Positions 1-31,065 of a stretch of DNA of 64,000 nt are shown one piece after another (positions within the stretch are counted from its first letter, which is position 1; every line of letters starts with the position of its first letter). The stretch is from NCBI GenBank assembly GCA_023853785.1, contig JAJIRX010000804.1, positions 1-64,000 on the forward strand, read 5' to 3'. The stretch comes from Psilocybe azurescens. Taxonomy: Eukaryota > Basidiomycota > Agaricomycetes > Agaricales > Agrocybaceae. Made by a program: the position numbers and the translations under genes. The notes under the pieces are model-generated. The model saw only the letters and a list, made by a program, of their open reading frames with translations. It had not been told where the DNA came from and ran no database searches.

Positions 1-336
1 TTGCACAACAGTGGTTTGTGTTGGTTGATCATAACAAACAGGGTCTGTGAGGTGGCCGCCAACATTGTTTTGGTTTTGTTGTATGAGATGATCGTCGCGC
101 CCTCTACTTCAGACGATTCGGACGATGGAGATCTCTCCCTAACCTGGTGGACATACGATTGCACAGTGGACGATTGCACAACACTGGTTTGTGCTGGTTG
201 ATTATGACCAATAGAGTCTGTGAGGTGGCCGCCAACATTGTTTTGGTTTTGTTGTATGAGATGACCGTCGGTGCCCTCTACTTCAGACATTTCACACGAT
301 GGAGATCTCTCCCTAACCTTGTGGACGTATCCTTCT
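1..336. repeat. 173-bp tandem duplication inside coding tail
   Basis: Two copies of a ~173-bp unit (1-173 and 174-about 336). Both contain GAGGTGGCCGCC and the same acidic, Ser-rich coding tail on the - strand, including an RERSPS block. The unit does not divide by three, so the copies are not in the same frame. Confidence 0.75.
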
Positions 337-2001
337 TCGTCTGATTCACTGGCAGGCTCCATGGGAATCAAACTTGAGAAGGGTGGTGTGACATTGTCAG
401 GATCGTCGGTGGCCGGTTCGGAATATCCATCGAAAAGTCCAGCAGGATAGGCGGCTGCCGTTATGTGGCCCTTGCTCCTGGAAAGCGCTGTAAATTTGAA
501 GGGTATAACAAACTTGTCCTGACGCCTCCTCCACAGATAGAGTATTTTCTGTACTTCTTCTGCGCTATACTTTCCGGGCTCCTGCAAGACTATTCCCAGC
601 GGAAAGTATTTTTTATCAATGTATAACTTCCAACCATTTTGTACCATGAGCTTGTAGGGGACTCTGCCTTTTGGCCCTTTACCAAGCTCTAAAAATTGTG
701 AGCAATTGTCAAGGCAGTGCCGTTTTTGACATACCAAGATGCTTATTCCACAATGTTCTTACTATATCTCTCTGAATAACATGGGTTTCGGTTCCGTTTT
801 TGTTCAATATAGGTGGCGGAATCTGTGGCATTTTGGCGGCCGTATATGTGAGATCGGCGACCGTAAATGTTCTTGTTTTGATCACTTCAGGCTCGCATCC
901 GGGACCCCCCGATTAGGATTTTCAAGTCGTGCAATCTTCTTGGACCACCGAACAAAACCCTCCATTGCCAAGCTGTATGCCTCTGGCTCATCAATGTCAA
1001 ATGATAACATTCCTGATGGATCGTTATTTAGGCGCCCAGTGTGTCATATCTGTAAATCTTGTCTTGTTATTGTACTCGGAAAGCAAGTCAGTTGCAGGAC
1101 GAGCGTTGAAAAGCGCATGTTCCCATCTTTATCATAATGACATTCAAATGCCACTGTTCTCATTCTCATAGAATTAAACCGTGCCTTGTCCATTGCCCGT
1201 ATGATCTTGCTCCCATATTTATATGCATTCCTGATCGATGGGGAAGGATTAGAACAATAGACAATGGCTGATCAGAATGGCAACTATACTGACTGTGCTT
1301 GAACATCTCGGGGATGCCTCCTTTTTCCCATTCTTCCAGCTTAGGTTATTGGCTCTTCCTTTTTCTTCCTTGTTCATTCTTTTTCTGACAATTGATTTGG
1401 CGGCAGAATAAAATCGAATCCAATTTTTGCTACTACCGGCTTCCGATTGAGACATAGGCTCGATGCCGGCCGCCGCTTGTTCTTCCATATGCTCCCTCGC
1501 CAGCACTTTTTGCCTCTATCTCAATTTACGTCTTTTTTTTTTAGCGGACGTTATTAGTGAGCCATAACTAGTTTTGATATTAAATCCTGGAATTCGCATT
1601 GTTCTTTCAGTCGCCGCATTGTTCCTGAACCAGGTATAAATTTGCTGAACAATGTTAGTACGACTTTTATGAACCTATCTCAGCACCTACTCACTAATTT
1701 CTTCTTGTCCCACTGCTTAAGAAGCGTTGAATCCTTCTCCGTGTATTTTTTTGTAGGTTTCACCGAACACCGCCTTTATTAAAGGAACAACATTCTTTGC
1801 CACCCATCGTGACTTCTCTTTACGAGGTGCTGCTCGATAGCCGGCCAACATTTCGCGGCGAAGGATAGCTGATTCTTCATTCTTCCAGATTGACAGTCCA
1901 GGTGCTGCACAGGGCATCCTTGGATCATGCTGAGGATCTATTGCAGTTGTGGAATGCCCCACCTCTATCTGCACCGGTTGTCCATCCGGTCCCTCTGGCA
2001 T
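1..2001 (-). CDS. Expanded-family protein with WFRNN helix (3' end off window)
   Basis: Multi-exon gene read right to left from an ATG at 2001; it runs off the left edge. The first exon has a helical segment followed by W, E and Y residues, and a GTGAGT donor lies at about 1694. The next exon opens with a short helix containing WFRNN and a basic KKKRRK stretch, reminiscent of a homeodomain-like third helix. Later exons (about 1500-1250, 1190-740 and 680-1) include a block ending LWNKHLG, then a GKGPKGRVPYK segment and an acidic, Ser-rich tail. I recognise the layout from large repetitive protein families of mushroom genomes but know no function. Single-base frame changes occur near 1730 and 1100. 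The tail contains a 173-bp tandem duplication. Exon boundaries are approximate. It is clearly coding-like; its role is unknown. Confidence 0.5.
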
Positions 2002-4353
2002 TGTGGTAGGATGATGGTGAAATTGAAAAATGGCCCACAGTGACTCTGAAAATATTTTCGTCCAATTATATCCAATGCTGTAGATATGATTGAAAAATTA
2101 TAATGAAATAGCTGCACCGTCGGTAGCCGCTCCTGTAGTCTATTTGCGAATTAGTCTGTAGCAAGGTGCTGTCAACCGTCAGGCGTGCCAACACGCCCTC
2201 ACGATTGAGTATCTATTTTCATGGCCCTGATAAAGACCCTTGTAATAGGCCTGCGTCTGTGCACGAATCCTTAAGGCATCACTTTTTCCTTCTCCTTTAT
2301 TGTATCTCAACTTCTAGTGTCTCCCGGGCAACATGGTCTCAATATTTTACTTATTCTGCGGCAGCCGAATGATTCCCTTATGCAATTATACTGGCCTATT
2401 TCTGTGCACAAATTGTTAAGGTATCACATTTTCCCTTTCCTTTATTGTATCTTGACTTCTAGTGTCTCCCAGGCACCATGGCCTCAATATTTTACTTATC
2501 CTGCGGCAGCCGAATGATTCCCTCATGCACTTATACTTGCCTTCTGGTGTACTTATATCTTAATCACCGGTGTCTCCCGGGCGCCGTGGCCTCAATATTT
2601 TACTTACTATGCGGCAGCCGATGGCATTTAAGTACTTCAGTTATCATCCTTATATTCTTCCATGAACATTTGATATTCTGCCTCTGCTTGTGCCTTCTCC
2701 AACTCTTCTTTCTTTCTCTGTCTGGGTTCTGTCATTGTCGGCAATCAACATGCCACACAGTGATATGTACACACCTATATTTCCAAGCTTTGATTCGTAG
2801 GGTTTCCTTGTTCTTGTCTCGATAGCGGCCCTGAGCCTGACAATGTTTCTCCCGGTGTATGGCAGTTATTTCTGGAGGAAATTCTTTATGCCTATCATAT
2901 TGTTAGACCGTTCGTTGTCATTGCATCGGCTGAAGATTAACTTTTTAGCTCGTTTGCGAGCTTTAGCCCTCTCATTGTCAATGTTTCTGAAAATTTTCAT
3001 TGATTATTCAACACTGTGCAATGATAGAAGCAAATACCTGCGATAGTACTCCCGTTTTTGCTTAAGTTTTCTTGAATGAGAAACATCCAGGCCGTGTACG
3101 ACCTGGGGTGGCATATGACTGGGTGGCATATGACTGTAGAGGATAACTAACACAGTAACTTATAACATTCCACGCATTGCCTACATCGGCATTGTCCGAC
3201 AATAGCCAGCACTAAAGTCGAGATTCATGAAGTTCATATAACAGCTATGGTGGGCTCTGAATGACGGTAAAAACAGCAGTAAATCGATAGAATGACCTAC
3301 TCTTTTATATACCCAAAGTAAAATTGTTTTTTAGACAAGGGTTAATGTGCTTTCTAGTACACCCGAAATCACCACGAGAGGCGTCCATAACGGGCGTTCA
3401 AGTTGAGATTCATGAAGTTCATATTATGGCTGTGGTGCATACTCAATGACGGTAAAAATTAGCAGGATATCAAAAGAATGACCTGTTCTTTTGTATACTA
3501 AAGTTGAAAGAGTTTTTAGGCTAGTGTTGAAAACCATTTTTGGCCGGAGGTCAACCAAGATTTACAATGTTCCTCACGACCACAATCTGGTGACTTTCAA
3601 GGGTCCTTTTCAAACCAGCTCTTTCATGTCAAAATTTTTGTCAAGGTTATCTATTAGACGCTTCCTGACTATAATGCCAAAAATTTGGAACCAAACGAGC
3701 TGTATTTGCTATCGCAATGTCAGTTATATCTTTTGTAGAACACCCGAAATCACCACGAGAGCCATATTCTGTAATTTAACAATCTCCCCAAACCCTGGAA
3801 ATCTACGGAAATACATGTTTTAGAAACAGTATTTTTAGACGAATCTACTGATGTGGGCATCTATTCATGCCCTACAGCCAATATTTGTCTATCCAACATC
3901 TTGCAAATACGTTGATTCCATAATTCGAAGAAACAGACATGAAGGAGTAACGATTCAAATAAAAACGGCCGCGGCGATTGTAAGGGTATGAGTTATAGGT
4001 TCAATAAAAGCTACCCTATAGCACCTGTCGCCCGGGGAAGGCCAGTACCTTACGTTTTATGTTCAGGCGGAGGCCGCTTGGTCGGTCAAACAAGGAATAC
4101 AAAGAAATTACCTTATCAGGCGGCCGAAACTGTCTATTGTGCTCTTTCATTACTTCAATTAACAATGTTCAAATACGTAATTATAGATTGTATTAACAAC
4201 CAAAGTATTCAGCCTCTGGCATTCAACTATAACTCTTCTCATTATATTAAAAACTATATCTAATATACACTTTTGCCTTTATTGCTATCAGAGTATATTC
4301 CTTGAATTTCCATAGGTGTTTCGCGTGCAGAAGACAGTTGATGCCGATCTTTG
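2002..4353. other. Gene-free spacer with two repeat families
   Basis: No convincing gene. The forward open frames here are short, overlapping and follow the tandem repeats. It holds a 145-bp tandem repeat (2256-2640) and a second, ~185-bp direct repeat: blocks starting at about 3219 and 3404 share GAGATTCATGAAGTTCATA and a following ~100 bp. The phrase CACCCGAAATCACCACGAGA recurs at about 3361 and 3741. Confidence 0.6.
2256..2640. repeat. 145-bp tandem repeat, about 2.6 copies
   Basis: Copies start near 2256 and 2401, with a shortened third near 2546. Each contains GTGTCTCCC, CCTCAATATTTTACTTA (one mismatch in copy 1) and the palindrome CGGCAGCCG (2359, 2504, 2612). Confidence 0.8.
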
Positions 4354-5706
4354 TTATGCATTCTCCATTTCAATTATTGAATTGCAGTCGGAGGCCGCAT
4401 CCACACTGTCCGATAAAACCCCAACAATTTGATCCTCCTTCAAACGTTTTGAGGACTGGGCACGCGTGGACAAACGCCTACGCTTTTTAGTACGCTTGGA
4501 GGATGATATTGAATCATCTTCACTGGACGATGACCCTGGAGCAAACTCCTCTTCACTACCAACAGGATTGCATGCTACATTATTGCATGTATTTTTTCTT
4601 GCTTCGTATGCGATGAGAGGGTTCTGTAGTTGCAATGCCCGCCCCGGTGGATTCGCTTTACATGGTGCGGATGCCGGTTCAGATTGTCACTTGGATTTTC
4701 AAATTGTTTTGTGCGATGGCTCGACTCAGACATAGAGTAGTGGCTGGGATGATAAGGCTTCATACTAGGTGGTGGGGGCCGCGTTAACGATGTCCGACTG
4801 ACTCGTTGCCTTACACTTTGGCATGCATGAGCTTGTGGTGCGCTTTCGGATGTGTGAGCTAGTGGTGGGCGGCTTCCAGCATTATTAGATGGCGGTGGCC
4901 GTGTTGACAATTCGCGAGCCGGGGGGTGGCCAGCGGGGATTACTGGTAGGTGGCGGAGGCAACGCTGCCAATGTCTGACCGCTTGGCTGCCTTTCTAAAG
5001 TGTTTACTTATATGTTGTTTTGGTTATACCAACAGTGCTAACCTGTGATCATGCCGTGGCTGGTTTCCACTGATAGGATTAAATGTTTGACTGTCGGCGA
5101 CCGCTTGAGGGGCATCTCATTGTCCGGAGGCCGTGCGGCAGCAATGTCAGCATACGGCGACTGAACAAAAAACTTTTCATGATTATCGACAGTGTCCGAG
5201 GCACCCTCCGAAGTTGTACGAACATTATCCCGACGCCATGGGTATTTCTTGCTGTGAGGTCCACATGTAACCTCCCACATGTCTATGCTATTACCAGGTT
5301 GATAACAATGTTGAAACACTTCTTGTGGATTGACCAAGTCCATCTCCGCCTCGCCTCCTCTTGCCTCCATCATCTCGATTTCGGTTGGTCTTTGGAAGTG
5401 AAATTTAACGGATGTTCGTCCAAAGTTTGTGTTATCAGTGTTTTCTATGTCCACCCCTTCTATGGTATAAACATGTGTTAATAGTCTGAAATAATGTTAT
5501 GACTCACCACGAAATATAACTGGTACTCCAGGAATTTTTGTCTCCGAATTTTTGTTGGGGTCACTTGAGATTGTGACAGTCGATATTGGTACTTTGAAAT
5601 GTTCTTCCCAGCGAAGTTTCTCAAGAGCTCTCTCTAATATCATGGCCGCAGTCAAGCCAGGTATTTTGGTCGAAATGAGCAAAGTCGTTGTCTCGCCATT
5701 CTGCAT
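4354..5706 (-). CDS. Unknown Pro-rich protein, divergent from Zn2Cys6 copy A
   Basis: Starts at the ATG at 5706. Exon 1 runs 5706-5508, followed by a GTGAGT...TAG intron (5507-5460). Exon 2 is 5459-5043, followed by a GTTAGC...TTTAG intron to about 4995. A Pro-rich exon leads to a basic, Ser-rich C-terminus (KRTKKRRR near 4490) that could be a nuclear localisation signal. No domain was recognised. The frame breaks in a run of six C near 4924 and again near 4640; the first looks like a homopolymer indel. The start lies 209 bp from the start of the divergent zinc-cluster gene, so the two probably share a promoter region. A transposon passenger gene is possible because KDZ occupies the equivalent position next to the second zinc-cluster copy. 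Confidence 0.45.
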
Positions 5707-5779
5707 GATATGTTAGTGTTATGTACAAAGGATCAAATGACATTATATCATTGTCGATCGGTATTTAATTTGACTTTAC

Positions 5780-5915
5780 ATTCCGGCCGACCCGGTCACA
5801 TGACTTTATTGCGCGTTGAACTTCTCGCGGCGCCGAAATTCAACTATCTTTAAACACACACCATAGTCATCTGTTCATTCTAATCATCTTATTTCCTCCT
5901 TAATTTTCTATTACT
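5780..5915 (+). promoter_or_regulatory. Promoter block conserved between Zn2Cys6 copies A and B
   Basis: GGTCACATGA, then CTTCTCGCGGCG and a TTCAAC/TTGAAC element, are shared in order and similar spacing with 12866-13011, upstream of copy B. In copy B the core reads CGGCGCCCG (12915-12923), a CGG-N3-CCG palindrome; here one C is missing. Confidence 0.6.
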
Positions 5916-8314
5916 ATGTCTTCCGCGCTCATATTGGAAATCCACGAAAAACTCCGCATAATTACCGTTAACCAAGAAGACTATAAGCGTGGAGTGAAGC
6001 CTCTTTTCGAGCAACTAGTGAGTGTGCGGCGACTGTTGGAAAGCAGGATTAATAAATATGTTCGACAGAGAAAAGCACACCGTCTATATACTGTTGAGAA
6101 GCCGAACTCCCGGAGCCGCGTCAGGACCTTTGGTTCAAGGTCTACACACTTCTCAAGGAAGGCATAGAAAAGGGGCCAACTGGGAAGGATGTCCTCAGGC
6201 CACGATATGACCAGGTTTGGGAGGGCGGTTGTGAGGTTCAAGGACGAAGAGAGAAGAAAGAAGCAGATTGAGCAAGAACAGCGTTCGAAAGCGGCTCCGA
6301 CAGCTCGGAAAGGTAAGTGACTCTACGGACCTGTAGAGTCAAATTCATAATCCATACAGTGAACTCGCGTGGTGAAATGACCCCTGCCAAATCCGTGCGC
6401 ATAGATCTGTCCAGTCATCCTATTCGTGGGCTGCGATCTACCACAAGGGCGGTTGCCGCTCCTGACCAAGTACTTCGGATAGGGCCCCCAAGAAACGTCC
6501 ATCGGCCGCCGCTTCTGGCAACACAGCGACATCAGTCGTCAGTGATGTGGAGGAGGTCGATAAGCCCAAGAATAAAGGCAAAGCAAAGGCGGTTTCGAAG
6601 AGAACAGCAGCAAGAGCGGTAGATTCTACGGATACCGATGATGACGATATTATCATGATTTCAACGAAAAAATCAGAGACGACATCCCAAGCGAACAGTA
6701 AGTCTTTAATCTAGTGGAGTATGAAAAACTAATAAATCTTTACAATAAAAGTGAAAGCTCCCGCACTCGACCCTCCCAAGCAAAAGGTCAAACGGTGCCC
6801 CAGGCGACGACATCCCGTGTGGGCGGCCGCCAGCGTCACAGCCGCTCTTAAAGAACACCTCCCGTCCGGCCGCCATGGCGTCAGAACCAACTCCAAAGGC
6901 CGCGAAATTGGCAAAGAGAAGTTGGACGGAAGGGGAAGTTGTTTGCAGGTCGTGCATTCGAGCAGACAAGACGTGTCGCATCATGCCTGATAAGGACAAC
7001 GTGGGCCATGCATGCTTTGAGTGCAACCAGAAGAAGAAGAAGTGTCCGTTGGCAGCAACCTCAGTGCCTCATCTTGGGTACGGGACCATCGTCAACATGG
7101 AGATGGAAGAAGTTTTTGCTGGGAAAGAGCTTGACCCGGATGTTCCTGTAGGTAGGCGGGACCTCGAAGATCTTGAACGGCAGTATGCACAGCCGGAAGA
7201 TCTAGCGGGTGTCCTCATCAACCTCGTTATTGGAATCGCGTGTACTGAAGGACGAGAACGCGCACTTACGTTCAGAGATCAGGATTCTCAAAGCTCAAGC
7301 CGACTCTCAAACAATGTTTCTACAGCAGCGTCTTCCAGCAGATATGGCTCTCGTCGTCAAAGAGGCAATCGCACAGGCACTCCCCGCTTCTCGGCCTACT
7401 GTCCCGACCACGTCTTCTGTCCCTGCCCCGCCATCGGTCCCCGTCTCGTCATCGGTCCCCGCCCCGTCCTCTGTTCCCGCTCAACCAACTTTTGATATCT
7501 ACGCACCGGCGGCTGCCGTTTCAACACCTAGACATCACCGCAAGTCTGCCAGCCCAACAAAGCGCCGGCGTGAGGCAACCCCTCCGTCACCAGCTGTATC
7601 ATTACCTATGGCCACGCCTGAATACATACCACGCCTTCCTCCGCCCCGAACGACCCGCACAGCGCTTCGTATGTCTCTCCCTCCATCGTCAGAGGAAGAA
7701 TATTTTGAAGACGAACAAACAAGGGATGTTGGTGGCGATGTCGAGATTGGAGATGACGATCAGGATGACGACGACGCCCGTGGCGATAATACCGGCGGTG
7801 AACGCACGCGCGACGGCAGCGCCGAGATTGTAGATGACGAACAGGACGATGACGGCGCCCGTGGTGATAGACCCAGCGGCGAACACACGCGCGGCGGCGC
7901 CAATGATGGCAACAGCGGAAGTGCGAGTGACGGCAACCATGAAGGGCTGAGAGGAAAGGACCGTGGACCAGCGAACGTCGGCGACAACGAACGAGCAAGT
8001 GCAGGCGACCACGAAGGAGCAAACAACGGCAACCGCCTACAAACTGGCAACGGCAACCGTGAAAGAGCGAGCCACGGTGACCAGGCAGGCGCGAGCAGCG
8101 GCGACCATCGACAAGCCGGGGCGACGGCGACAGCAACATTGAGGGTGCTACCCGGGCGGACAGCGCCTCCAAATCCCTGGATGAAAGCAATGAAACACAT
8201 AGGGCAGGAAGTAAGTCTCAGGCTCCTGGAGATCGTGTGGGCCCATCCGACCTAAAACGCAAGGCCACCCCAAGTGGGTCTCACGAATCTCCCCTCGAAA
8301 AACATAAATTGTAG
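5916..8314 (+). pseudogene. Zn2Cys6 zinc-cluster protein with coiled coil (copy A)
   Basis: ATG at 5916; the first exon ends at a GTGAGT after FEQL. A second exon (about 6100-6310) carries WFKVYTLLKEGIEKG, and a third is basic. The zinc-cluster exon (about 6760-7230) has six cysteines spaced CX2CX6CX12CX2CX6C, within the Gal4-type Zn2Cys6 pattern, followed by a basic KKKK stretch. A helical, Leu-rich coiled-coil-like segment (7230-7300), a Ser/Pro/Val-rich linker and a low-complexity Asp/Gly/Asn repeat (7740-8110) follow. The end, LKRKAT...stop, matches copy B. Single-base frame changes near 6215, 7235 and 8120 break the reading frame, so it is either a pseudogene or contains sequencing errors. 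By family it would be a nuclear DNA-binding dimer; the target is unproven. Confidence 0.6.
7740..8110 (+). repeat. Low-complexity Asp/Gly/Asn-rich coding repeat
   Basis: Imperfect repeats of codons for acidic and Gly/Asn residues, e.g. DDEQDDDGARGD and GDNERASAGDHEGA. It holds CGGCAACCG at 8027 and 8051. A likely slippage-prone tract. Confidence 0.6.
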
Positions 8315-8702
8315 GAATACCACTTGCTCTTTTCTTGTTGCGACCTGGCGGCGGCCACTCCCATGCTGTATTATTCGTCGCCATTCCGCTCTGCTAGGTT
8401 TTGTGTTTCTTTTTTTGTCATCTGTTTTGTATTGCAACCTGGCAGCGGCCACTATACATGCTATGTTATTCGTCGTCATTCCGGCTCTGCCATGTTTTCG
8501 TCTTTTTTCCGTGGTTTATTATATCAGCACCTTGTATTTTGTCTACGCCGGGGCCCGTAGTAGTTTATAAATTGTTAGGCCCCTTTATTTGTACTATACC
8601 ATTTGCACACAAATATAGTGCTTGTCTTGACAGTGCTGGGAATCAGTAATAATACAGTGTCTCCCAAAAAGACTAAATGAAATTGAAATTATTTTAACGC
8701 AT
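8315..8702. other. 3' region between convergent genes, with ~100-bp tandem repeat
   Basis: Lies between the ends of Zn2Cys6 copy A (+) and the KDZ gene (-). Two diverged copies of a ~100-bp unit, each with CTGGC(G/A)GCGGCCACT and TATTCGTCG, start near 8345 and 8440. The hairpin at 8543-8560 follows. Confidence 0.6.
8543..8560 (+). terminator. 3' hairpin conserved between Zn2Cys6 copies
   Basis: Stem CTACG/CGTAG around a CGGGGCCCG core. The same hairpin occurs at 26891-26908, downstream of copy B. Its place 230 bp past the stop codon suggests a 3'-end or element-end signal. Confidence 0.45.
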
Positions 8703-11700
8703 TCAATCTGCGGTATCTATGTTGTGATAGTTGATGTTAGCCTTCTTGAACCTAACCTCAGAGACTCTCGCCAGCTCTGTCCACATTGCAATTTGTTCCT
8801 CTGCGTAGGCACGGTGTCCAGCTGACTGAATTTCTTCTTTATCTCTTCTCACTTGCCATCTTCCCGCCATATGCATATAAAATCTAACTGTCCAACCCAT
8901 TTCACGCCTTGTCAGATTCAATTCTTCGGTCCATCGATTTTTTGTGCTCTTGCACTGAGCCAGTTGACCCTATAAACTTCATCAATGTAAAAATTGGATC
9001 AGTAAGAAGGTATAAAGGACTGTCGTACATTCATTGTGGTAAGCGGCATCCGCGCCAGCCGTCGCTTCCCCATACTTGTGCTGCGTCGGCCGCCGCTCCA
9101 AAACCATGCCATTGTGTCGGAGCTCTGTCCGGGAGCATTTGGATCAACAACACGTTCACTTACCCTACAATGATTGCGTTCAAGGAAGGGGTACTGCTTG
9201 TCATGCTTTTCTAGGTCCTGCAATGATACCAACGTCCTCATAACCGACCTGTTGTGGTTGTACATTGCTCGATGTTGGCTTATTGTCCGGTTTAGAAGCT
9301 TGACTCCATCCCACGCCCTGGTATTTTTGAAACACTGTTGCGGCCCCTAACATTCTTCGCATAATGATAAGAAAGTTGGATTACCGATGTTCTGACCTGG
9401 TCCAGGATATCTTCAGCTTGTCCGGCGAATATCAAGCTCTGTTTTACAGAGACCTGCAATATTTCGTTTGTCTTCTGGTTCCAAATTACCAAAACCGGCA
9501 CCCGTAAATCGTGATGGGAACGGGAGGACTTGCCGCTCAGGGTCAGATCTTGAGATACCTGGAGTATCAACCTCCCGTTCAGGGCCCTCTTCTCCAGATA
9601 GGTCATCGTCAAGCACTTGGTACTGAGGATCATCGAGAGCATCAACAATGTGAGCTCCAAGAAAATCGTTTGCAGAGGTGCTGAAACTTTCAATTTGTCG
9701 TAGCACGGCGCGCCGCTTATTCACCGTATCCAACTTCTGGGCAGTGGTCGGCGACCGCGAGAGCTTTCTAACGTGTGCTCGCAGATTATACCTTACAAAA
9801 TGAGGATCAAATAGTAATACACAATGCTATCATCCACTTACATAGCTTCCTCCAATTTCAGTCCCATTGAAATCCATGCTGCTTGACCCGTGCGGCCTCC
9901 GGTAGTTAGCTCTGATAATGAAATGGACAATTCAATCTCTCGCCGACTTGGAGCTACAAAGCTGTCAATTGATACAAGGGTGGTGACCGCGAACAATGCC
10001 TACCCTTCGCAATCTTGTTTTTCATAACATCCATGGCTTTTACATCATCTTGTCGTTGATTTTCTGCTTTCTGAATTTGCTCTATCCACTTAGGTATCTC
10101 AGAAGCGGGGGCCGACTCTGTGAGGCCATCAAAGTACTCCTGGCTTTTTGCTTGCTGTAGTAATGCGCGATTATATTTCTTTGTAATTGTTTCAGCTGCC
10201 TTTTATCAGTGCACAAATTGGTCTTCAAATGAACACACACACCCATGTTGATAACTTTTTCCAGTTGTTATCTCCCATATGATCGTCTAAAATCTCAATC
10301 CGGGGTGAGACGCAGTGGCACTTACTGTGCTTCGAGAAATTTCATTCAATGTCGCCCAAAGTGTTTCCAGAATTTCACCATCGATTATGCCCACTCCAGG
10401 AATGTATGTCGTCGCCCATCTATAAAGACATTCTTCCTTGTGGCCGTGGACGTGAAACAGTCCAATAGCGCCAATAAGTGTTACGGCCTCCGGAAGATCC
10501 AACTTGCTTGATTTGTTGAATCGCTCGAATAGGTTGACATAGTATTGGCACATAATGTCGTATATGCAGAGAAGACAAGTTATGCCATGCATATGACTAT
10601 GCTTGATTGCCTGGCTGAGTGCATAATCCATAGACATCTGCTTTTGCCCTTCATGAAGTCAACGGCGCTTCCGAGACTAAAGCATCCATGCCTCACACAA
10701 GCCCATGCTCCAATGCCTCGACAGCGCTTACCGGGAGCCGCTTTGTCGCTTTCTTTATTTGCGTTATGATTATTGCATGTTGTTTTCTAGATTCCAGGGG
10801 AAGGAGATTTGTTAAGCTGTATTCATGTTGTTTTGGTTTCACACACCCTTGAGTATAATTTGTCGTTCTTGCTTGCTTCAGCTAGATGTTCCTGATAGGG
10901 AACGGGGTCTGCCATATATGCTTCGCCATTAGCAAGGTTAACATCGTCCCAATCATTCTTTTGTTTCAAGTGGTAAGCTTTGAAATTGCCATCCCCAACC
11001 AAACTACGGATATATAGGTCCTTGTCTGGATCTTCTCTCCAATTGCCTGGGAGATTTATGCCGGGTTGGGGACAAGCAGGACAAAACAAACCAAGCTTTG
11101 ATAGGTCTGACGCTTCGTAGTTATCCGGTGCAAATTTAGCGCAGTTATAGGTGCGGTCGGTGGCCGTGAGGGGCGGCACTCGACACTCCTGGAATGGATG
11201 CAGAGACGGCATCCGCGATTGCAGCACCGTGCTGGGTTGTGACGGGTATAACGGCTGAGTTCTCGTCACTGACCATCGCCGCCGATTTGTCTTCTGGACA
11301 TTCAGCATCATGACCACGCCCATAGATTTTCCATAGTTTGAGATTTCTGAATTGACGACTGACCCTTCTTAGCTCTCGATACCGATTTATAACGACCTTC
11401 GGGAATGCAGGGCATGTTAGGCGTCGAAGCTTTTGGTAATATTGGTATCCTGATGTTTTGCATTCTAAATTCGATAGACGGAAGTCTGTTAAGACCTGAA
11501 GAGTAAAAACAGTTCGGATGGTTTTAAAACTTGCGGGAAATAAGCCGAGTTTGAGATAATTGAGATCTTGAAGTGCGGTTGGTCCATGACAAGAGCAGTG
11601 AACCACAGGCAGATGGTGAATCCCACTGATATCGACAATCGTCACGAATGGATTATTGTAGGTATCATAGCGTGGTGGAAGGGGAAGTGAGTTTGGATGT

Positions 11701-12416
11701 GTCCCAGGAACCGGTATTTCAAACATTGGCTCTTGTCCTTCAGGTGGTTCGGCCCCCGCCTCCTCTTCTGCATCACCCCATTCATCTTCCTCAGAGACAG
11801 GCGGTGGCCGCTGATCGGACAAATGATGTTCCCCATCCTGTGTTGACGGACACCGGATGCCGCCATGTCCAAGATAGAGCTGTAGTCCTGTTTCCCATAG
11901 GGCTCCAACTTGAAAGAAATGTCCATTCCATTTGTCGGCAGCGATGATAAGGCAAGAGATTATGGGCCTCTGCACAGCACTGAGTGCATGTCATCCGGCC
12001 TCCGATACAATTCGCGACATCGCCATATTCCAGGCGAACTTCCACACCTTTGACATTCGCCAATGTGAGCCGGGGCTTCCATTTCTAACAATGTCTGCAG
12101 ATAAGATTTGCGTCGAGGTAACCACTCCACGAAGATAGTCGTTTTGAGATATTCCGCCGGAGCGTACATCAGGCAGAGCTTCGAGATTGCTCATCAACTG
12201 CTCGTCAGTAAGTCCCTCGTGGCTGAATGGTGAGTCTTCGATTGCAATTTCTTCGGGCAGAGCAAATTCGGGCAAAGGCCCACGTCTTCGTTCCTTTTGC
12301 ACTCTGCTCTTTCCCAACTTCTTTCTTCTTTTACCAAGACGAAGCCATGTCTCTTCTTCTGGGTCGCTATTTTGCTTGTCATCAGGATGTATAATTCGGG
12401 CACGACGTATTCCCAT
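8703..12416 (-). pseudogene. KDZ-superfamily transposase with CxC2 cysteine cluster
   Basis: Starts at the ATG at 12416 with a basic KRRKK N-terminus. The CxC2 region (about 12100-11830) shows ECQRC, GGRMTCTQCC and KWNGHFF...LYLGHGG. The segment around 11600-11400 (HHLPVVHCSCHG...LGLFP) continues the KDZ-associated N-terminal part. Then come LGLFCPACPQPGINLPGNW and the catalytic DDE-type core: VGDGNF (about 10985), YDIMCQY (about 10550) and HVHGHKEECLYRW...GIIDGEILETLW (about 10430-10350). The C-terminal helical region reaches the stop at 8703. KDZ elements are DNA transposons expanded in Agaricomycetes. Several frame changes within 250 bp of the CxC2 domain, and another near 10650, cannot be introns, so the copy is damaged or poorly sequenced. 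Element ends were not found. Confidence 0.85.
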
Positions 12417-12495
12417 TGTTGCTGAGTAAAGAGAAAGATGATTGCAGTGTACAACAACGATATCCTGATCTATGTGCAATTTTCCAAAATAAATG

Positions 12496-12745
12496 ATCCT
12501 TGGCACGGCTTTTTGAACTGACGTCACATAAGGCATGAGTGATCGATAATCCTTCGGTCCCCGCTTCACCAAACTGATATATACTTACTTCATCCGGAGG
12601 CCGCCTTGGCTAATTAATTGATCCTTGGCACGGCCTTTTAAACTGACGTCACATAAAGCATGAGTGATCGATAATCCTTCGGTCCCCGCTTCACCAAACT
12701 AACATATACTTACTTCATCCGGCAGCCGCCTTGGCTAAAAATGAT
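12496..12745. repeat. 125-bp tandem duplication upstream of KDZ
   Basis: Copies at 12496-12620 and 12621-12745 are nearly identical. Each contains CGGTCCCCG (12555, 12680) and a second palindrome whose centre differs: CGGAGGCCG at 12595 but CGGCAGCCG at 12720. Confidence 0.85.
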
Positions 12746-12865
12746 CTACAACGATTGCTACTGAAAAGACGTGTGTTTTGAGATTATGATTTAGACCAAG
12801 ACAACGAGTTTACAAAATAGGCGCATGATTTGATTGACATGAGTCTCGGCACAAGTCATGTCGCT

Positions 12866-13011
12866 CAGGTCACATGATGTGATTGTTCGTGTTCGTAACT
12901 GGTTTTACTTCTCGCGGCGCCCGAAGTTGAACAATCTTCTACGCCCTCGCGCTCATTTTAATCGTTATCACATATTCCGCTTCTTCATCTTCTTCTCCTC
13001 CATCTGCTTTA
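12866..13011 (+). promoter_or_regulatory. Promoter block of Zn2Cys6 copy B
   Basis: Shares GGTCACATGA, CTTCTCGCGGCGCCCGAA and a pyrimidine-rich stretch before the ATG with the copy A upstream region (5780-5915). It contains the palindrome CGGCGCCCG at 12915. Confidence 0.6.
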
Positions 13012-14032
13012 ATGTCTTCGGAAATTATCAATCAAATTCACAAGAAGCTTTGTGTAATTACCATCGACCCGGAGGAATACAAGCGTGAATTAAAGCAGCT
13101 TTTTGAACAACTGGTGAGTATATAACCACGGTATCTACGTCAAAGCCAGTGATAACAGGTCTATTTACAGAGGAGGGCATATCGGCTGCACACCTCTGAA
13201 CATGGCAACTCCCGGAGCCGGACAGTGCTCTTTGGTTCGATGTCTACACGACCCTGACGCAAGGTATCAACAAGGGGCCGAACGGCAATGAAAGGCTCAA
13301 GCCTAGATATGAGCAAGTCCGGGCTTTAGTCTTAGCATTCGAGAAAGAAGAGGGGAAAGACAAACAGATGGGAGCAGATGAGCAAAGCAATCATTCGAAG
13401 GCGGCACCCGCGAGTGCTGAGTGGTAAGTTATCCGTCGTGGTCAGAAACTTATCTTATATCTGTACAGGAGACCAACATGACGGATCTATAGCTGAGGCA
13501 GCCGTCGCCGCTGCCGATGAAGTGCAGATAGAGGAAGCTGCCGCCCGCCCGCCGAAGAAGTGCAGACAGAACCGGCGACCGCTGTTATCCCAACAGCGGC
13601 CGCCGCCAACTCATCAAACCCTTCAAGGCATTCGAAGATCATGGTTGTGGAGATCCCGCCTAGAAAGGCGAAAGTAACGAGAAATCCTGTCCTCAGTGAT
13701 GAGGAGGAGGGTAATCTAAACAAGCGAAGAAACCGTCTGACAATGAAGAAAGGTAAAGGGAAGGAAGTATCGAGGGATGGAGAAAGGTAAAGGGAAGGAA
13801 GTATCGAGGATGGAGAGTGATGACGAGGAGGACTCAGAAGAAGTAGAAAGTAAGCATTTAATTTCCTCTAGTACAAAAACTAATATATTTGTAGATTCAA
13901 ACCAAAAGGACATTCGCAAGCGTACACGTCAAGTCCCGTCGGAAGAAGAGGCCGGCGCCCGTCTCGAAGCTCTCCAATGCTCGTCGACCGGCTCAAGAGC
14001 CACCCATTGCGTCGACATCCGCTGGCGGCCGC
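13012..14032 (+). pseudogene. Zn2Cys6 protein copy B, 5' part (split by retrotransposon)
   Basis: ATG at 13012. The first exon, MSSEIINQIHKKL...FEQL, is clearly paralogous to copy A and ends at the same GTGAGT donor. The second exon (about 13195-13425) has LWFDVYTTLTQGINKGPNG, again matching copy A. Downstream exons are Ala- and Ser-rich and basic. A 36-bp duplication at about 13748-13820 repeats AAAGGTAAAGGGAAGGAAG. The gene stops abruptly at the LTR junction (14032) and resumes at 25860. Frame changes are present near 13560. With the zinc cluster lying beyond the insertion, this half alone cannot make a DNA-binding protein. Confidence 0.65.
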
Positions 14033-23900: not shown

Positions 23901-24106
23901 TGCTAAAGGAACTTGACGGTACCCCAATGGTTCAAGGCGTTGCTGCATTCCGACTTCTACGCTACTTCCCTCGAGATGGATCAGTCATTCCTAGAGCTGA
24001 ACTGGACGATATAGTGGAAAATCTTGAATACGCTCAGAACAACAATGAAGATATGGACGATACCTTGACGACGATCAGTAAATTGTTTGCCCGAGACCTA
24101 AAGTAA
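20946..24106 (+). pseudogene. Retrotransposon pol: RT, RNase H, integrase (frame-broken)
   Basis: RT starts with WVVRNIPIPPGL and YRSPIFWVKKK; the catalytic FIDD motif is at about 21679-21690. RNase H with EVDAKYIKGML and GPDGLSRR follows (22320-22560). Integrase has the zinc-finger HEELGH (22930) and CHQCQ (23036), then catalytic D in NADVLF (about 23119), D in QTDNGSE (about 23297) and E in GSVERGH (about 23402). A C-terminal GPY-type module, YLGPYEV, is at about 23856. Frame breaks occur near 21517, 21720, 22980 and 23580, so no single full-length Pol is read. All catalytic residues that I checked are present. Confidence 0.85.
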
Positions 24107-24172
24107 CCTCCTCTTCATTTCCGCATGTTGCCTATCAACCGAGGACGGTTCTTTTCTCAAGTTTTGGGTGGA

Positions 24173-25859
24173 TGTCATACACCAATTTTGATTGGATATG
24201 AGATTTATCTATAAGCTTAGAGCGCTCTGTCTTGACTCCCCATTGCATGCAGAAGCCAGGGTTATTATTTCGCATTTTTATCTGAAGCACATCCTCAATA
24301 TTCAACGTCAAAGCCCATTCACAGTCCACTTCAAGCTCCATTCCAACTTTCAATCTCCACTTCAACCATTTGATCAGTTACATTCCCTATCAATGATTCA
24401 ATCGTCTATCTATTTCGAACCTCAAGGCTATGCAGATTATTCTTGGACATCATTCCTATCCATTCTAGTACGCACAGCACTGCACAGCATCATATATCAC
24501 CATCGTCATCAGCATTTGATCATCTACAACTATTGGTCCTTAACTGGATTCCACATATGCAGCAAATCTTTGTCTCACTCAGCAGTCTTGGTAATGGATG
24601 ACTGAGCTGTGCCATGAATAGACTGGTTCTATTCATTAGCATGGTACTTGTTCGCTATTTTGGCTCCTTTTCTATTGTCTGACACTTTCATATGATTGAT
24701 CCTTCCTTCCTTTTGTCATTCTTGCTTATTGTACTTACTCAGCTTCGCTTCTTTCTTACTCATCTCACTTCGCTTTTCATAATCCTGCTTATACTTCTTA
24801 CTCATCCTATGTTACTTACTTACTCATCCTTCTATTTTTCACTCCTAAACTCCGTCAGCTTTCAATCTATTGTATGTAGTTGATAGATGGGACTACTGGG
24901 TGTTGTTCTACAGAATGATTGGTATAGTTTGGACGCTTGATCTCTTTTAAATATTTTTCTATGTTCTCTGGTATATAAACCATGTATTAGTATCGCTTTG
25001 GAATACAAGGAAGTTACAAGCCCCAACTTTCTTCACAGCAAAGATTTCAAGTTATCAAGTACTCAGTCCAGCACTCCAAGCACGCATTCAATCAATCTCT
25101 ATCAATATTCAGCACGAAATTCAACAATCACTCCAGTTATTCAAGACGTTCATCAGAGGCTAGACTAGCCTATCCAACCACTCTCGCTCTCTCATCACAG
25201 AGAGTTTTGTCCAGTTCATTTCGATCCTACCATCCTCCAGACCCTTCATTCTTCCTCTACATCAAGATCCTCAACTCCCCATCGCTTCTATTGCTCCAGA
25301 ATATTTTTATTCTGCAATCTTGGTCTTGTTGTCATCTTCATCCATCGCCCTAGTCATCCCTCATTCACTTCACCGCTCTGTTTGATTTTTGGTTCAAGAA
25401 CATCGCACAATCCTTCATCATCTATCACTCCAGGCCGCTCAAGTCATTATTCTATCAGCAGACTTTACTTCTAGCTTTGCAGACACTGCAGACTTGCTTG
25501 AAGCGCACTAGGATCAAGACTACATTCTCACTCCTGCCCCCGTATCAATCCCTACGATTTATCTAGTCATTTGGCCCCTCCACAGTCATCACACCTCATT
25601 CACACCGTTCTACCCCAATCAAGTCGGGTTGCTTCCTCCCAGTAAATACTCAAGGGCATTTTATATCCCCTCATCCATTCCTCCTCCTTCATACGTCCCT
25701 GCCCTCCTCAGACCACATACATCTACACAACCTAGTGGCAAAGCCAGCCCTCACTTTAACTCAACAGGGAGAGAGTCGTCTTATCTAGTCTAGACCATTC
25801 CTCTCTGGTTTGTGTTTTGGTTTTCGATTTATATATCAAATCACACACTACGTAGTTCA
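24173..25859 (+). repeat. 3' LTR
   Basis: 1687 bp, preceded by a weak polypurine-like GGGTGGA. The end CGTAGTTCA is followed by the CCGC target duplication. Confidence 0.95.
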
Positions 25860-26746
25860 CCGCTCCTCCCACCACCACTCGTCGGACCCGTCCGGCTATC
25901 CAAAGAATGGAGGCATCTAATTCCAGTGCTCGTCGACCGGCTCCGTCGACATCCGCAGTCGAGGGACGCAAGCGGGGCCGCTCGCGTCATCAAAGCAGCC
26001 TCGGCCAGGTCATCAAAGGTCAGGGAGTGGACTGAAGGAGAGGTTGCCTGTAGGTCGTGCATTAGAGCACAAATACCATGCCTAGTCATGGTCGACAAGG
26101 ACAACGGGCGCCCCATGCTTGTATGGAGTGCAACGCTAAAAGAAGAAGTGCCCGTTAGCAGTGGCGAAGTCCCCCATTCTAGGTTTTGGGACGACAATCA
26201 ACTACGAGATGGCAGATGATCTGTCAGGGAGGCGTTTAATCCCAATGCTCGAGCAGCAAGGCGGATCCTGGAAGATATGGAGAGGAAGTGGGCAATGCCC
26301 GAGGATTTCGGAGGAATCCTCATGAGCATTGTCTCTAGCCTTCGAGTGGTCAGGGACGACAGCAAGCACCTCATGTCGGAATTTCAGAAGTTGAAGGAAA
26401 CTGTCAACCGGCTGGCATCCGCCCAAAACAACAACGGCTGGGCTGTCGACGACGTGCAAGGGCGACCGACGTTGAGGACGCCCTTCAGCAACCGCATGCA
26501 AAACGCATCTGAAGGCGAGTCGAGCGGCATCGACAACGGCGCCGCGGATCAGACAACGACGGTTCCAGCGGTCATGATGGGGACATGCCCAAAGTCCGTG
26601 AAAGTTATATCGCTTCCCGTAGCGTCTTCTACGCAGGCCTGACAGCACGGATGGAATTACCAACGAAGATGGAGCGGGGCCGCCTTGAAACGCAAGGCAA
26701 CCGCGACTGTTGCTGGACGTAGCCCATCCAAGAAACAAAAAATGTA
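25860..26746 (+). pseudogene. Zn2Cys6 protein copy B, 3' part
   Basis: Resumes the gene cut at 14032. WTEGEVACRSCIRAQIPC (about 26028-26082) matches the first zinc-cluster half of copy A; HACMEC and a lysine/arginine stretch give the second half in another frame, after single-base shifts near 26105 and 26145. The helical segment ILEDMERKWAMPEDFGGIL...LKETVNRLAS corresponds to the coiled-coil region of copy A. The C-terminus LKRKATATVAGRSPSKKQKM ends at 26746, matching LKRKAT...stop in copy A. The long acidic repeat of copy A is absent here. Both the retrotransposon and the frame breaks would prevent function. Confidence 0.65.
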
Positions 26747-27532
26747 GGAATGGCGTGTACTTTTTCTGCACCCTCTCGGCGACATATTTGTTATATATTT
26801 TGTCTTGTCGTTCCGTCGTGCTGGGCTTTCTTGTCGGACATCGCCTGTCTTTTTTTTGGGACTTTTACATTTAGTTTTTGTTTGCATTTACTACGTCGGG
26901 GCCCGTAGTAGTCTGTTGTTCATTTGGCCCCCACGTTAAAATTATACTATATACAGAATTATAATGCAGTTTTGGTCACTTAATTCATGAAAACAGTATG
27001 ATTCAGCTTCTTAGACAAAGAAAGCGGCAGGTTGAAGGCGGTGGCCACATACTTTTGTAAATATAACCGGCCGCCGCCTTTGCACTGGTCTTTGACTGGT
27101 GGGCAGTTGCGCCCACTACGCAAGTGGGATAATTGGCACGGCAAATTTTCATGGGGAAAATGGGAAAGCCGTTGCAAAAAATGATTCTTGTGCAGCTTTG
27201 TGTAAAAAGCCTGGCATGCACGTACAAACTGACGTCTCAATCGGAATGACTGATTGATGACTCTGGCGGCCGCTGTCGTCAACAAAATAGGGCGCCCAGT
27301 GATTTCACACGGCTTCCGTTTTGGTATAAAACTATCTACAATGCTTCTTTCCAGAGCCCGGATGCCAAGAGATCAATAAGCTGGAAGGGATAACCAAGGG
27401 ATATCAAAATAATTGTCTTTATTTGTGGTCACCTTCCACTGGGAACTTTTTTTCTTCTTGTCGATCATCCTACATCCTGATAACGTTAATTCTCTACCTA
27501 CTCCTACTAAATCAAAAGCTCTGTTTATTATT
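26747..27532. other. Spacer with conserved hairpin; no gene seen
   Basis: Contains the 3' hairpin CTACG/CGTAG around CGGGGCCCG (26891-26908) and CGGCCGCCG at 27068. ACAAAATAGGGCGCC near 27283 resembles the sequence upstream of copy B (about 12814). No convincing coding. Confidence 0.6.
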
Positions 27533-29580
27533 ATGGACTCTGGAAACCTCAATACATCAAACTCAAAGATATCCCATTCCCGCGAACCTGTCAATCCAAT
27601 GAAATGCTCAATTACTGCGCACCATGAAGATATGGAGGGCATAAACTTTTCCAAGGTCCATATACCTCATCCTGACGACATGGTGGATCCTGGTAGGGAC
27701 TTGGTTTCTGTCACAGCCGGCCCTATTGTCGGTTTAATGAAATTGTCTACGTATGTTCGTGAATGTCCTTTGTGAAAATGAAATCTGAAAAATTGTTTGC
27801 AGTCTTATACACTCTCGTCATGTCAACATTGAGAAAGTCCTTGCCTGCCCTGGCTTTTCGGTAGTGCAGTTTAGCGAATTTACCGACGCGAAGAATCATT
27901 ATGAAGAGCAATGGATGTTGGGGAAGGTTCGGCTAGTCACGATAAACGGCGAGGTTATTTCTTCAAAGAATCAAAGTAAATGCCCAGCCATCACGTCGGT
28001 GACCATCCCAACACAAAGTACTGTGCAAGCAGCTGCCCGGGTTCCGACCATTGCATCCCGGCAACTGATACGGAGGCCGGTACTGTTCAGGGAACTGCTT
28101 GCACTGCAGCCATCGCGATCACGCCATATTCTTATTCCGCCCCAGCAAGCGATAAAGCTCTTGCCGTGTACCTGGAAGTTGCTCCTACAAATTATGTGGC
28201 GCTACAAGTTGAGCCTGCCACCGATACAGAAATTGCCACTGTGTTGCCATCCAGTGTAGGAACAAGTGAAGGTGTGGGTACCCTCTCCAGGACACACATG
28301 TCTTTGGCGGCCGCTATGGAATTGCCAACTATTGTTGGTCTCAAGTGCACACCTCTCCCTTCAGAATCCACCCTGGACACCGAAAATTTGCAACCCCACG
28401 TTAGTGATGAAAGCCCTTACAGTGTGATTGCTACGGATGCAGCCACGGCCGACTCTCAGCAATCCGATTCTGTTACATTGGGTGCGGCCTCCATGAAGTC
28501 ACCGGCGGGCCTAACGCTGCGAAGCGGTTCCTTCTTTGTGCAGGAGTCTTCACTTCCAGATCTTGCTCCAATTGCCAACAACGTGCCATCGAAAAAAGAC
28601 CGGTGGTCAACATCCAAGCAGAACAGGATCGTTGGGATTATGCAAGAGCTTATTATGACAAAGTATATAAGCCCAATCATGTTTTCCTCCTGGTCGACCT
28701 GAAAGCGGCTGCCAAGGAAGGATATGTCGCTCCCCTCAGTCCCCCTACCGTAATCCTCCGTCCATGGAAATATGCGGTGGATCTCCATGTCGAGGCCTTC
28801 TTGGAATACAAGAAAGCTCGGGAAAGGGCTCTTGAAACCGAAGTTCACGACGGACGGCCGGAGAATTCTAAACCTTCAGCTGCGGCGACAAGAATTAAGA
28901 AGTCGGATAGGGTCAAAGATAAAAGAAATTTCTAATTGAACCGGAGTCTGACGAGGGAGTTGTCGGACACCCCACCGCCAAACCCTAATGGTTTTACAAA
29001 TCTATTCAAATACGAAGACATATTCGATGAGGCAACTATGAAAATGGCCATCGAGGAGAAGTACAGAGACAAGGTTGTAAGCGATGAAAGTGAAGAGTAC
29101 ATCAGCGACTTGACTCCCCGGCGTCCATAGTGGATTCCGATTACTTCATCAGAAACTCGAAAAGAAAACCAAAAGCGGACCTCTGCATTAACGATAATAT
29201 GCCTCGGCGCCCGGCTCCATTTCCCGATATCTGGGGCCCCGGCCCCGATTTACACTTTTACATCTTCACAAACATCGCAAGTACAAGATAATTATGAAAG
29301 TAACGTTGAAAGTGCCCCCTCAACTCCCACAAGGCTATCAAGCCCCTTCCGAGAGGCCAGCCCTCTTCCTAGTTCTTCAATCCCCAGTTCACCATATGCA
29401 TCCTCTTCAATGTCGATGGAACCAGGCCCTTCGTCGATTCGTCGATTCCCCACTTCTTCGAATGATAGAAACGCTCTTAACGAAGTTAACAATCGTCTTA
29501 GCAGCGAACTCCTCGATCTTTTGAAACCTGTACCAGGTAGACACCCTGGGATTTTAGTTAGTGTAAACCTTGTAAAGTAA
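27533..29580 (+). CDS. Protein with possible RNase H1 N-terminal/viroplasmin-like domain
   Basis: ATG at 27533. Exon 1 ends MKLST at a GTATGT donor, and exon 2 begins after TTTGCAG (about 27801). Across that junction the residues run DLVSVTAGPIVGL...FSVVQFSEFTDAKNHYEEQW...GKVRLV, which fits the pattern of the small RNase H1 N-terminal/viroplasmin fold (glycine turn, F..F.dA...Y, G.V), though sequence alone is weak evidence. A long Ser/Thr/Pro-rich stretch follows, then a basic RIKKSDRVKDKR region and a Ser/Pro-rich C-terminus with a short helix (LNEVNNRLSSELLDLLK) ending at 29580. Frame changes near 28600 and 28935 interrupt it. It lies directly after Zn2Cys6 copy B in the same direction. Confidence 0.45.
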
Positions 29581-29912
29581 CTAGAGACATTTTGACCGTC
29601 AATGATGAATTAGTATTTCTGTGCTGTTTTCAAGTGACTGCTTGTTATTAAAGATTCAAAATCTGCGTTATTGATGTGTTTACGGGTACACAAAGAGAAG
29701 GTGCAACTGGCCCCCGCATTATATTCCAAACTAACTTTGAATTGCTATGAGTTGAGACAGTTGAATGATAGAAAGCGGCGGCGGTGCCGTCGGCGTTGTT
29801 ATCGCGCTCCACTTTATTTGGGAATAATTTTGGAACTATTTCATATTGAGATTCACCCATGTATACTAAAATATGAGCAACAGACGGCGGGCAGACATAG
29901 TAGACAACGACA

Positions 29913-30567
29913 ATGACGGCACCCGACATATTCCCAAACTGGATGGCGTCTACGTTTTCCGAAAGTTACGGCAGCCTATGGTGTAATCTAAATTTCTGTA
30001 GCAACCGCTTTCTGTTCCATCCCAATTCCCAGATTCTGGATTTCACCTGCGGCACCGGTGGCAAATAATTGAAAACCCTACGGAGCCCGCCACACAAATT
30101 TCTGGGTCATCCATCACCATACCCGCACCGGCTGCCGGTATTCAATTTATGAAAGTCTTCCGGCATCCGCTGAACATAAAACCGGTTGCTGATTCACAGT
30201 TCCAGTGGCGGCGACTAATGATCAATTCAAGCAGCTCCCCGGTTGCCAATCTTAATTTTGGAGACCAGAACGGCTCCATTATATATATACAGGTTATGGA
30301 GCCGGCTCTAGGGCGAGGCAGTAAATAGAAGGCGGGACGGCAGCCGCTCAATATTTACATACCGCGGCACCCGTGGTGCTTCAGATGAAGCCCGGCGAGC
30401 AAGTCAATGTCGGCCCGATTCCATCCAATCTCATTCAAATTTCAATTGATTTGCCAAGTGAGCTGCATAACAAATATGTATTGGATATGTAGAGCATTTT
30501 AAGATATGCGGAAGCCGTACTGCACTTCAACACCCTCGTGGCAGAGGCCATACTAGAAACTGCATAA
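29913..30567 (+). pseudogene. Decayed coding relics
   Basis: A 51-codon open frame from the ATG at 29913 (MTAPDIFPNWMASTF...) is followed by further open stretches in other frames, the last (MKPGEQVNVGPIPSNLIQ...ending 30567) with an internal stop near 30491. The residue patterns look coding, but no family was recognised. Eight CGG-N3-CCG palindromes fall between 29917 and 30517. Confidence 0.35.
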
Positions 30568-31065
30568 ATTGAGGAACCATTTTACCATCTGTTTTACTGC
30601 AATCTCTCAAACGAGCATTCATGCTAGACAAATGACGAGTACGAATTCTGTTTTATATTTTATTTACCTCAATCGGACCTCCGCCCCTTCCCCCTGCCAA
30701 TTCTCCCCACAATTCATCCTAAATTGGTATACCAGGGATGGTAAAAAGTGTCCAGAATGGGATGAAAGTACCCAACAGAAAGTGCATTAGAATGACGGGA
30801 GCCGACGCCAGATTTGCTGAAAACCGGCTGCCGAAATCAAAAATCGCCCCCGCAGGGGCGCGAGGGTGTGCTAGGGTGCAGTGTACCAGGGGTGGTGTCC
30901 ACTTGACACCGTACCTCACACGACATTGTTGGGCCCTCGCTTGACACCGTGACGAGCACTACATAATTGCCTTTTCGCCGAGTCTCTTTCGGGCCGTGTG
31001 ACACATCACATCATAATTAATTCAAATTCCGTATGGTACGTAATTAGATCACTGTCCCATGTGAC
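30568..31065. other. Right edge of the accessory domain
   Basis: The last two CGG-N3-CCG sites are at 30796 and 30825. Past them is a short GC-rich stretch with GACACCGT repeated at 30904 and 30942, then AT-rich DNA. No gene seen. Confidence 0.5.

Follow-up and report, generated by a model that had tools for sequence, protein, structure and literature searches.

A swarm of CGG-N3-CCG palindromes in a giant KDZ transposon family of Psilocybe azurescens, and its possible role as an address for element-encoded Zn2Cys6-like proteins

Why should a transposon carry dozens of copies of one short palindrome, dispersed through coding and non-coding DNA alike? The question is raised by positions 1-64,000 of contig JAJIRX010000804.1 of Psilocybe azurescens (64,000 nt, hereafter the window), where a preliminary description made from the letters alone had pointed to CGG-N3-CCG sites concentrated in accessory DNA, counted here as 1-14032 plus 25860-31000. 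The window was analyzed together with the 70.4 Mb genome. The swarm is carried by a KDZ transposon family whose element has an estimated length of ~31 kb. Our reading, which is tentative and somewhat short of probable, is that the sites may be docking sites for predicted Zn2Cys6-type proteins of the element, marking it as self and perhaps steering a TET/JBP enzyme to it for counter-silencing.

Counts of CGG-N3-CCG are 50 for 1-14032, 1 for 14033-25859, 15 for 25860-31000 and 1 for 31001-64000. The 65 sites of the accessory DNA compare with a mean of 2.9 and a maximum of 8 in 300 dinucleotide shuffles, in agreement with the earlier statement that the swarm lies far above the ~2-3 sites expected; the swarm itself stands, while the 56 sites first given for it (42 + 14) were an undercount. 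Fifty-five of the 65 (50 of 56 in the earlier count) fit the CGG-NN-GCCG core, CGGNNGCCG, in one orientation. Both N positions are close to even, with counts of 12/14/16/13 and 14/16/14/11 for the four bases, so that NN is free; that nearly all pairs occur had been noted before. The flanks are free too. Orientations are divided 32/23, and the gaps between sites look random (coefficient of variation 1.05). The swarm-bearing parts of the element are:

1..14032, no strand: left swarm part, with 43 CGGNNGCCG (either orientation) among 50 CGG-N3-CCG.
25860..31063, no strand: right swarm part, with 12 CGGNNGCCG among 15 CGG-N3-CCG, ending at the right end of the element.

Sites of the left part start at 407, 452, 855, 1437, 1467, 2121, 2359, 2504, 2578, 2612, 4068, 4389, 4668, 4893, 5095, 5125, 6450, 6503, 7510, 7853, 8027, 8051, 9044, 9087, 9496, 9749, 9893, 10106, 10484, 10732, 11158, 11207, 11750, 11802, 11854, 11996, 12595, 12720, 12915, 13402, 13573, 13597 and 13953. 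Those of the right part start at 27068, 27310, 28071, 29205, 29917, 30129, 30161, 30338, 30365, 30509, 30796 and 30825. The 33 kb to the right of the element hold no CGGNNGCCG; the single site there (41992), already reported, is a different CGG-N3-CCG. The long terminal repeat (LTR) element between the two parts had been described as free of sites and contains one CGGNNGCCG, at 19254, which is a chance-level occurrence.

Spacing matters. With other spacers, the same DNA gave 16 sites for N0, 13 for N2 and 0 to 7 for the remainder; in the shuffles, the best of 13 spacers never exceeded 11. The spacer rule holds, with N0 and N2 mildly enriched as well; at least five of the N0 cases are nested in CGGCCGCCG sites. 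GGC-N3-GCC, a control word named in the earlier description, was not enriched (6, 2, 2 and 2 in the four segments). In a preset-free scan of gapped words from 3+3 to 4+4, CGGC-N2-CCG and CGG-N3-CCG were the two most enriched. GGC-N4-GCC was set aside as a separate word, since for the most part it picks up the motif sites, extended as GGCGG (of its 21 occurrences in the element, 12 overlap them).

Two trivial origins were rejected. Twenty-six open frames chosen by hand contain 31 of the 55 sites, and the 34 resulting site-frame pairs are distributed 18, 8 and 8 by codon phase; sites in all three phases, on both strands and in coding and non-coding DNA bear out the earlier judgment that codon use is an insufficient cause. 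An origin by tandem repetition was likewise discarded, because shared flanks are limited to local repeats near 2359-2612 and 12595-12720. In the latter, the sites at 12595 and 12720 belong to two units of one local tandem repeat that keep CGGNNGCCG, differ at both N bases and agree over the 12 bases leftward. Genome-wide, CGGNNGCCG is an ordinary word (2768 forward and 2744 reverse, against 2668 and 2690 for the reversed control). These counts barely exceed the control, which led us to discard a function across the genome. Its density is at most 78 per Mb across the genome versus ~2860 per Mb in the element. In forward orientation there are 111 close pairs of CGGNNGCCG and 38 of the reversed pattern, and in reverse orientation 117 and 27. 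Of the 100 close CGGNNGCCG pairs listed, 72 fall, by hand count, in element copies on ten terminal-repeat-bearing contigs.

The limits of the element were obtained from its right end:

29804..31063, plus strand: right terminal repeat of ~1.26 kb with 8 CGGNNGCCG; outermost bases TG.

A DNA search with 29800-31400 returned at least 46 matches (40 of 85 candidates scored). Among them are at least 21 near-full copies of the terminal repeat besides that of the window, at 90-98% identity, which start no more than 24 bases from the query start and end at 31063 or within 10 bases of it. Since the copies stop at or near 31063, the right end of the element is placed there, and the element occurs in multiple copies with definite boundaries. 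In inverted orientation, the ~1.26 kb terminal repeat also stands at the opposite end of the copies. The contig and the window start inside the element, so that the left part of this copy lies beyond the contig; the missing part is present on C547, C713 and C548, where the equivalent of window position 1 lies ~12.2 kb from the outer end of the inverted terminal repeat. The length of ~31 kb is a sum that excludes the LTR insertion. The LTR element occupies 14033-25859 inside the KDZ element, with LTRs at 14033-15720 and 24173-25859 that are 99.5% identical, and is therefore a recent insertion. The DNA just right of the element (31064-31400) has one other genomic match, at 97% (C746:61893-62229), which may represent an empty site or the second haplotype. 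Relatives of the terminal repeat's outermost 370 bases occur at 75-79% identity on C529, C758 and other contigs; at C529:24215-28061 and C758:39757-44920 they are paired in inverted orientation at distances of 3.8 and 5.2 kb, like small non-autonomous elements.

Which proteins of the element could read such sites? Three kinds of gene are of concern, and those within the window are:

6755..7492, plus strand: first Zn2Cys6-like open frame, Cys6 domain at 6944-7045, likely continuing in 7206-8252 with a coiled-coil-like stretch.
25995..26640, plus strand: second Zn2Cys6-like gene, its Cys6 core split between two frames here and open in C546.
8706..12584, minus strand: KDZ transposase gene region, exons in several frames.
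10305..10658, minus strand: KDZ domain PF18758, 80.7 bits against a curated cut-off of 26.6.
11415..11645, minus strand: CxC2 cysteine cluster PF18803, 68.5 bits against a cut-off of 27.

Both Zn2Cys6-like genes have domains of the form C-x2-C-x6-C-x12-C-x2-C-x6-C, with the six cysteines invariant in 7 aligned sequences. This spacing fits the Zn2Cys6 pattern, which we take to be C-x2-C-x6-C-x(5-12)-C-x2-C-x(6-8)-C. A stretch judged by eye to be coiled-coil-like follows both domains. A third, weaker relative (40% identity, E about 3e-5) occurs on six contigs in the left part of the element outside the window. Five protein relatives were found, all named Psilocybe cyanescens and up to 99-100% identical over the aligned part, and two close relatives carry the UniRef name Zn(2)-C6 fungal-type domain-containing protein. 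A sequence search of solved structures returned nothing relevant.

The third kind of gene, TET/JBP, was found in copies on other contigs, near the element end opposite to the right end in the window. Of 15 TET/JBP matches in the genome search, eight lie 1176-1232 bp inside a terminal-repeat copy (C547, C298, C548, C215, C713, C108, C827 and C688; distances by hand), and all eight exceed the Pfam cut-off. Three further matches lie no more than 5.1 kb from a terminal repeat, on C355 and, below the cut-off, on C241 and C129. The copy at C438:669050-707854 is rearranged or misassembled, with its KDZ/Zn block inverted relative to the ends, and has its TET match at an end where no terminal repeat scored.

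The swarm travels with the element. In a comparison with 36 blocks of DNA from other contigs, the KDZ and Zn regions of the copies on C438, C546, C547, C642, C643, C644, C648, C802, C810 and C811 showed 1.1-3.6 CGGNNGCCG per kb. C142 lacks the word, C851 has 0.3 per kb, and C502, C711 and C712 consist of mixed blocks with 1.6-1.9 per kb or none; the most CpG-decayed copies have few or no sites. Five distant KDZ loci (C781, C440, C714, C323 and C528) contain 0-2 CGGNNGCCG each, so the swarm is not general to KDZ loci. The association with KDZ and Zn2Cys6 genes that had been proposed is therefore sustained by the other copies, and by a sibling family described below, and does not extend to every KDZ locus. 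A diverged relative on C911 has 4 CGGNNGCCG in 3.3 kb.

According to PMC5559640, proteins of the zinc-cluster class usually recognize two CGG triplets together, as homodimers joined through a coiled coil. Each site, with its CGG and CCG half-sites 3 bp apart, could accordingly be bound by a Zn2Cys6 dimer, and the readers would be the element's own Zn2Cys6-like proteins. The asymmetric G of CGGNNGCCG might, speculatively, reflect unequal half-site contacts or a heterodimer of two paralogues. Bound proteins would mark the whole element as self and would probably bring the element's TET/JBP 5-methylcytosine dioxygenase to self DNA, the presumed output being loss of methylation, or silencing countered in some other way, across both coding and non-coding DNA. 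Recruitment of TET/JBP by the bound protein would be the least supported of these steps; it is kept because TET/JBP is the sole anti-methylation tool seen encoded and because decayed copies show CpG damage. In those copies, which are our own grouping, 920 of 3647 CpG positions outside the motif have changed, versus 528 of 12851 other G/C positions, and 911 of the 1023 changes at all CpG positions are C>T or G>A, the pattern expected from methylation followed by deamination.

The same damage admits a very unlikely explanation, that the sites are the target of a host defence or methyltransferase and persist since copies outpace decay. Each site does hold two CpGs, and CpGs in old copies do decay by C>T; however, selection would be expected to remove such sites rather than favour 55 of them, and no difference in spacing between KDZ families would be expected.

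That difference comes from a sibling KDZ family. In a preset-free scan of the distant loci, CGG-N2-CCG appeared in C781 (7 versus 0.3) and C440 (5 versus 0.2). The scan alone is not clean, with palindrome scores of 11.8 for C781 and 10.9 for C440 beside controls of z 21 for L018 (mostly repeated copies), 9.5 for L021, 8.6 for L013 and 7.9 for L012, and the word counts mainly because a genome-wide search bears it out. The family word, TCGGNNCCGA (TCGG-N2-CCGA), has 1296 occurrences in the genome where its reversed control has 654; of the first 50 distinct places, 24 fall in C33:160843-168890, beside a KDZ gene. Close pairs of TCGGNNCCGA number 62 versus 1 in the reversed control. Forty-seven of the 50 listed pairs lie within 8.5 kb of a KDZ match, a zone of ~2.4% of the genome, although they are not independent, because many are copies of one element (C33, C79, C92, C274, C447 and C529, at similar offsets) and the four on C454 are a tandem array; the remaining 3 are on C171 and C275. 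Cys6-core matches, 39% identical, occur on C33, C79, C152, C171 and C792. All but C792, which falls beyond the rows of the listing, appear among the 15 contigs listed with TCGGNNCCGA pairs, and three of the matches (C33, C79 and C171) fall within the swarm itself.

A shared CGG half-site, a different spacing, and actual or apparent Cys6 domains in two families fit a co-evolution of reader and site such as that of VANC and VANDAL. One may go further and suppose a self-address code, in which each giant KDZ family evolves its own CGG spacing, with sites dispersed over the entire element and its exons, read by a co-evolving Zn2Cys6 protein of the element that brings its own TET/JBP and erases the methylation of its own kind only; this extension we regard as somewhat unlikely. 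The two spacings also speak on the distinctly unlikely alternative that a host zinc-cluster factor is exploited, the sites placing element genes under a host regulator. CGG pairs are the usual zinc-cluster targets (PMC5559640, in the parts available), and the genome has canonical Zn_clus genes (47 matches at E up to 0.1). None of the matches listed lies near the sibling KDZ loci, with the limit that the same model misses the window's own domain. Against a host factor stand the difference in spacing between the two KDZ families and the presence of sites in exons and on both strands, not just near gene starts.

Further words were seen at other KDZ loci. TCC-N3-GGA (C528, C142, C502, C711 and C712) was rejected as a motif of further families, being mostly local minisatellite-like runs. 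Next to several KDZ or decayed copies stand dense minisatellite arrays resembling TCCANTGGA: L053 (C528), L069 and L029 (C142), L073 (C502), L074 (C711) and L075 (C712). The top hexamer TCGGCC has 15 occurrences in L051 (C714), 13 in the near-identical L052 (C323) and 12 in L047 (C781), versus ~1, and GTCGGC is the top hexamer in L050 (C440), with 12 versus 0.7; either may be a family word.

Several results weigh against docking by Zn2Cys6-like proteins with TET/JBP recruitment. The proteins are named Zn2Cys6-like only, because their scores with Pfam Zn_clus PF00172 (13.1 and 11.7 bits, best relative 15.8) are under the cut-off of 21. The structure model is poor (predicted local distance difference test, pLDDT, 58.8) and its fold matches are weak, though headed by zinc-cluster DNA-binding domains, and the second gene is split in the window's copy. 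The window's own TET gene is not seen because the contig end cuts its copy. In the sibling family each Cys6-core match is weak (E about 0.2), so that the argument there rests on the coincidence with swarm contigs, and the genome search gave no TET/JBP match on sibling-family contigs, which implies that TET is not needed for a swarm. Nor do the copies speak clearly for the sites. Core conservation is weak, with a suggestive pooled odds ratio of 0.53 and no difference by column (11/88 versus 112/778, and 2/59 versus 119/2821). Close copies differ by site losses only (three sites kept in copies and lost in the window), and copies this close to one another cannot demonstrate selection on the sites. 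In the window itself, one-step CpG decay products exceed expectation (TGGNNGCCG 14 and CGGNNGCCA 13, versus 2.0 each, ignoring CGGNN[ACT]CCG rows, which are reverse-strand readings of real sites), so sites in this element have decayed too and any protection would be incomplete.

The last of these observations are the strength of a view that we consider quite unlikely, namely that the swarm has no function today and is what mutation, conversion or past selection left behind, now decaying at the CpG rate. Motif CpGs in decayed copies have changed nearly as often as others (92 of 441 versus 920 of 3647), the live columns are without clear constraint, losses alone are seen between copies and decay products are in excess. 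An exact spacer and fixed core with free NN and flanks are nevertheless hard to obtain by mutation or repeat growth, particularly with shared flanks so confined, and a second family with a different spacer is likewise hard to explain.

A KDZ transposase is a serious alternative reader and also counts against our proposal, because it is the best-supported component common to both swarm families and because site density is somewhat higher in the terminal repeat (8 in 1.26 kb versus 47 in 17.98 kb, Poisson P 0.02). The sites would then dock the transposase via its CxC2 cluster, as an internal array that assists it in locating, coating or pairing the termini of so long an element. We judge this unlikely. 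Transposase sites are usually near element ends, whereas the present sites are found throughout the element, exons included. Paired CGG half-sites with a family-specific spacing are, moreover, the habit of zinc-cluster dimers (PMC5559640, in the parts available).

How, finally, does the proposed address, read by Zn2Cys6-like proteins, compare with known systems? Gal4-type regulators have few sites, in promoters, whereas here there are dozens inside one mobile element. The likeness to Gal4, Ppr1, Leu3, Put3 and Hap1, as far as PMC5559640 was covered, is in the six-cysteine cluster, the coiled-coil-like stretch after it and the paired CGG half-sites; the proteins of the element differ in a loop of 12 between the halves, a lysine-rich stretch in the second half and scores under the Pfam cut-off.

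A link between KDZ and TET/JBP was reportedly first made in a 2014 paper. TET-bearing KDZ elements and plant anti-silencing motifs are known already. TET-bearing Kyakuja (KDZ) elements of Agaricomycotina resemble the present one in joining a KDZ transposase and TET/JBP in one element, and the TG end recalls their CA..TG termini; Laccaria Kyakuja families are said to be without terminal inverted repeats (PMC12730594, in the sections covered), whereas here they measure ~1.26 kb. Our element thus combines a TG right end with inverted terminal repeats and is filed as KDZ, not Kyakuja, because of the latter. The same 2025 survey speculates that mushroom-transposon TET/JBP acts without target specificity; its main text lacks the words zinc and Zn2Cys6, and the sections covered describe no dispersed motif (PMC12730594). 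The covered part of PMC8889193 likewise has nothing on motifs, and in the open-access literature, as partially covered, no description was found of a KDZ element that has Zn2Cys6-like genes together with a palindrome swarm specific to its family.

The closest parallel is in plants. VANC proteins and VANDAL motifs co-evolve in Arabidopsis (PMC5735166, in the parts available), and the likeness extends to a dense short motif of the family's own, an element-encoded DNA-binding protein (here predicted) and different motifs in related families (available parts of PMC5735166 and PMC10398659). A dense family-specific motif that is changed in a relative family was found here (CGGNNGCCG versus TCGGNNCCGA); motifs in same-orientation tandem repeats of non-coding DNA were not. 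The available parts of those papers place VANC motifs in non-coding DNA, in tandem repeats and in one orientation, whereas ours are dispersed, lie in exons too and on both strands, and have free spacer bases. Cys6 domains and TET/JBP stand in place of VANC, and would take over its binding of the motif and removal of methylation. A swarm beside predicted DNA-binding domains offers a concrete, testable way for an element to aim TET/JBP at its own copies. If this is true, matched families of motif and protein would show how an address changes, here via spacer length, and sequence-specific transposon anti-silencing would have arisen in fungi from other parts than in plants. The proposed system is, on our best reading, a possible fungal analogue of the plant VANC systems.

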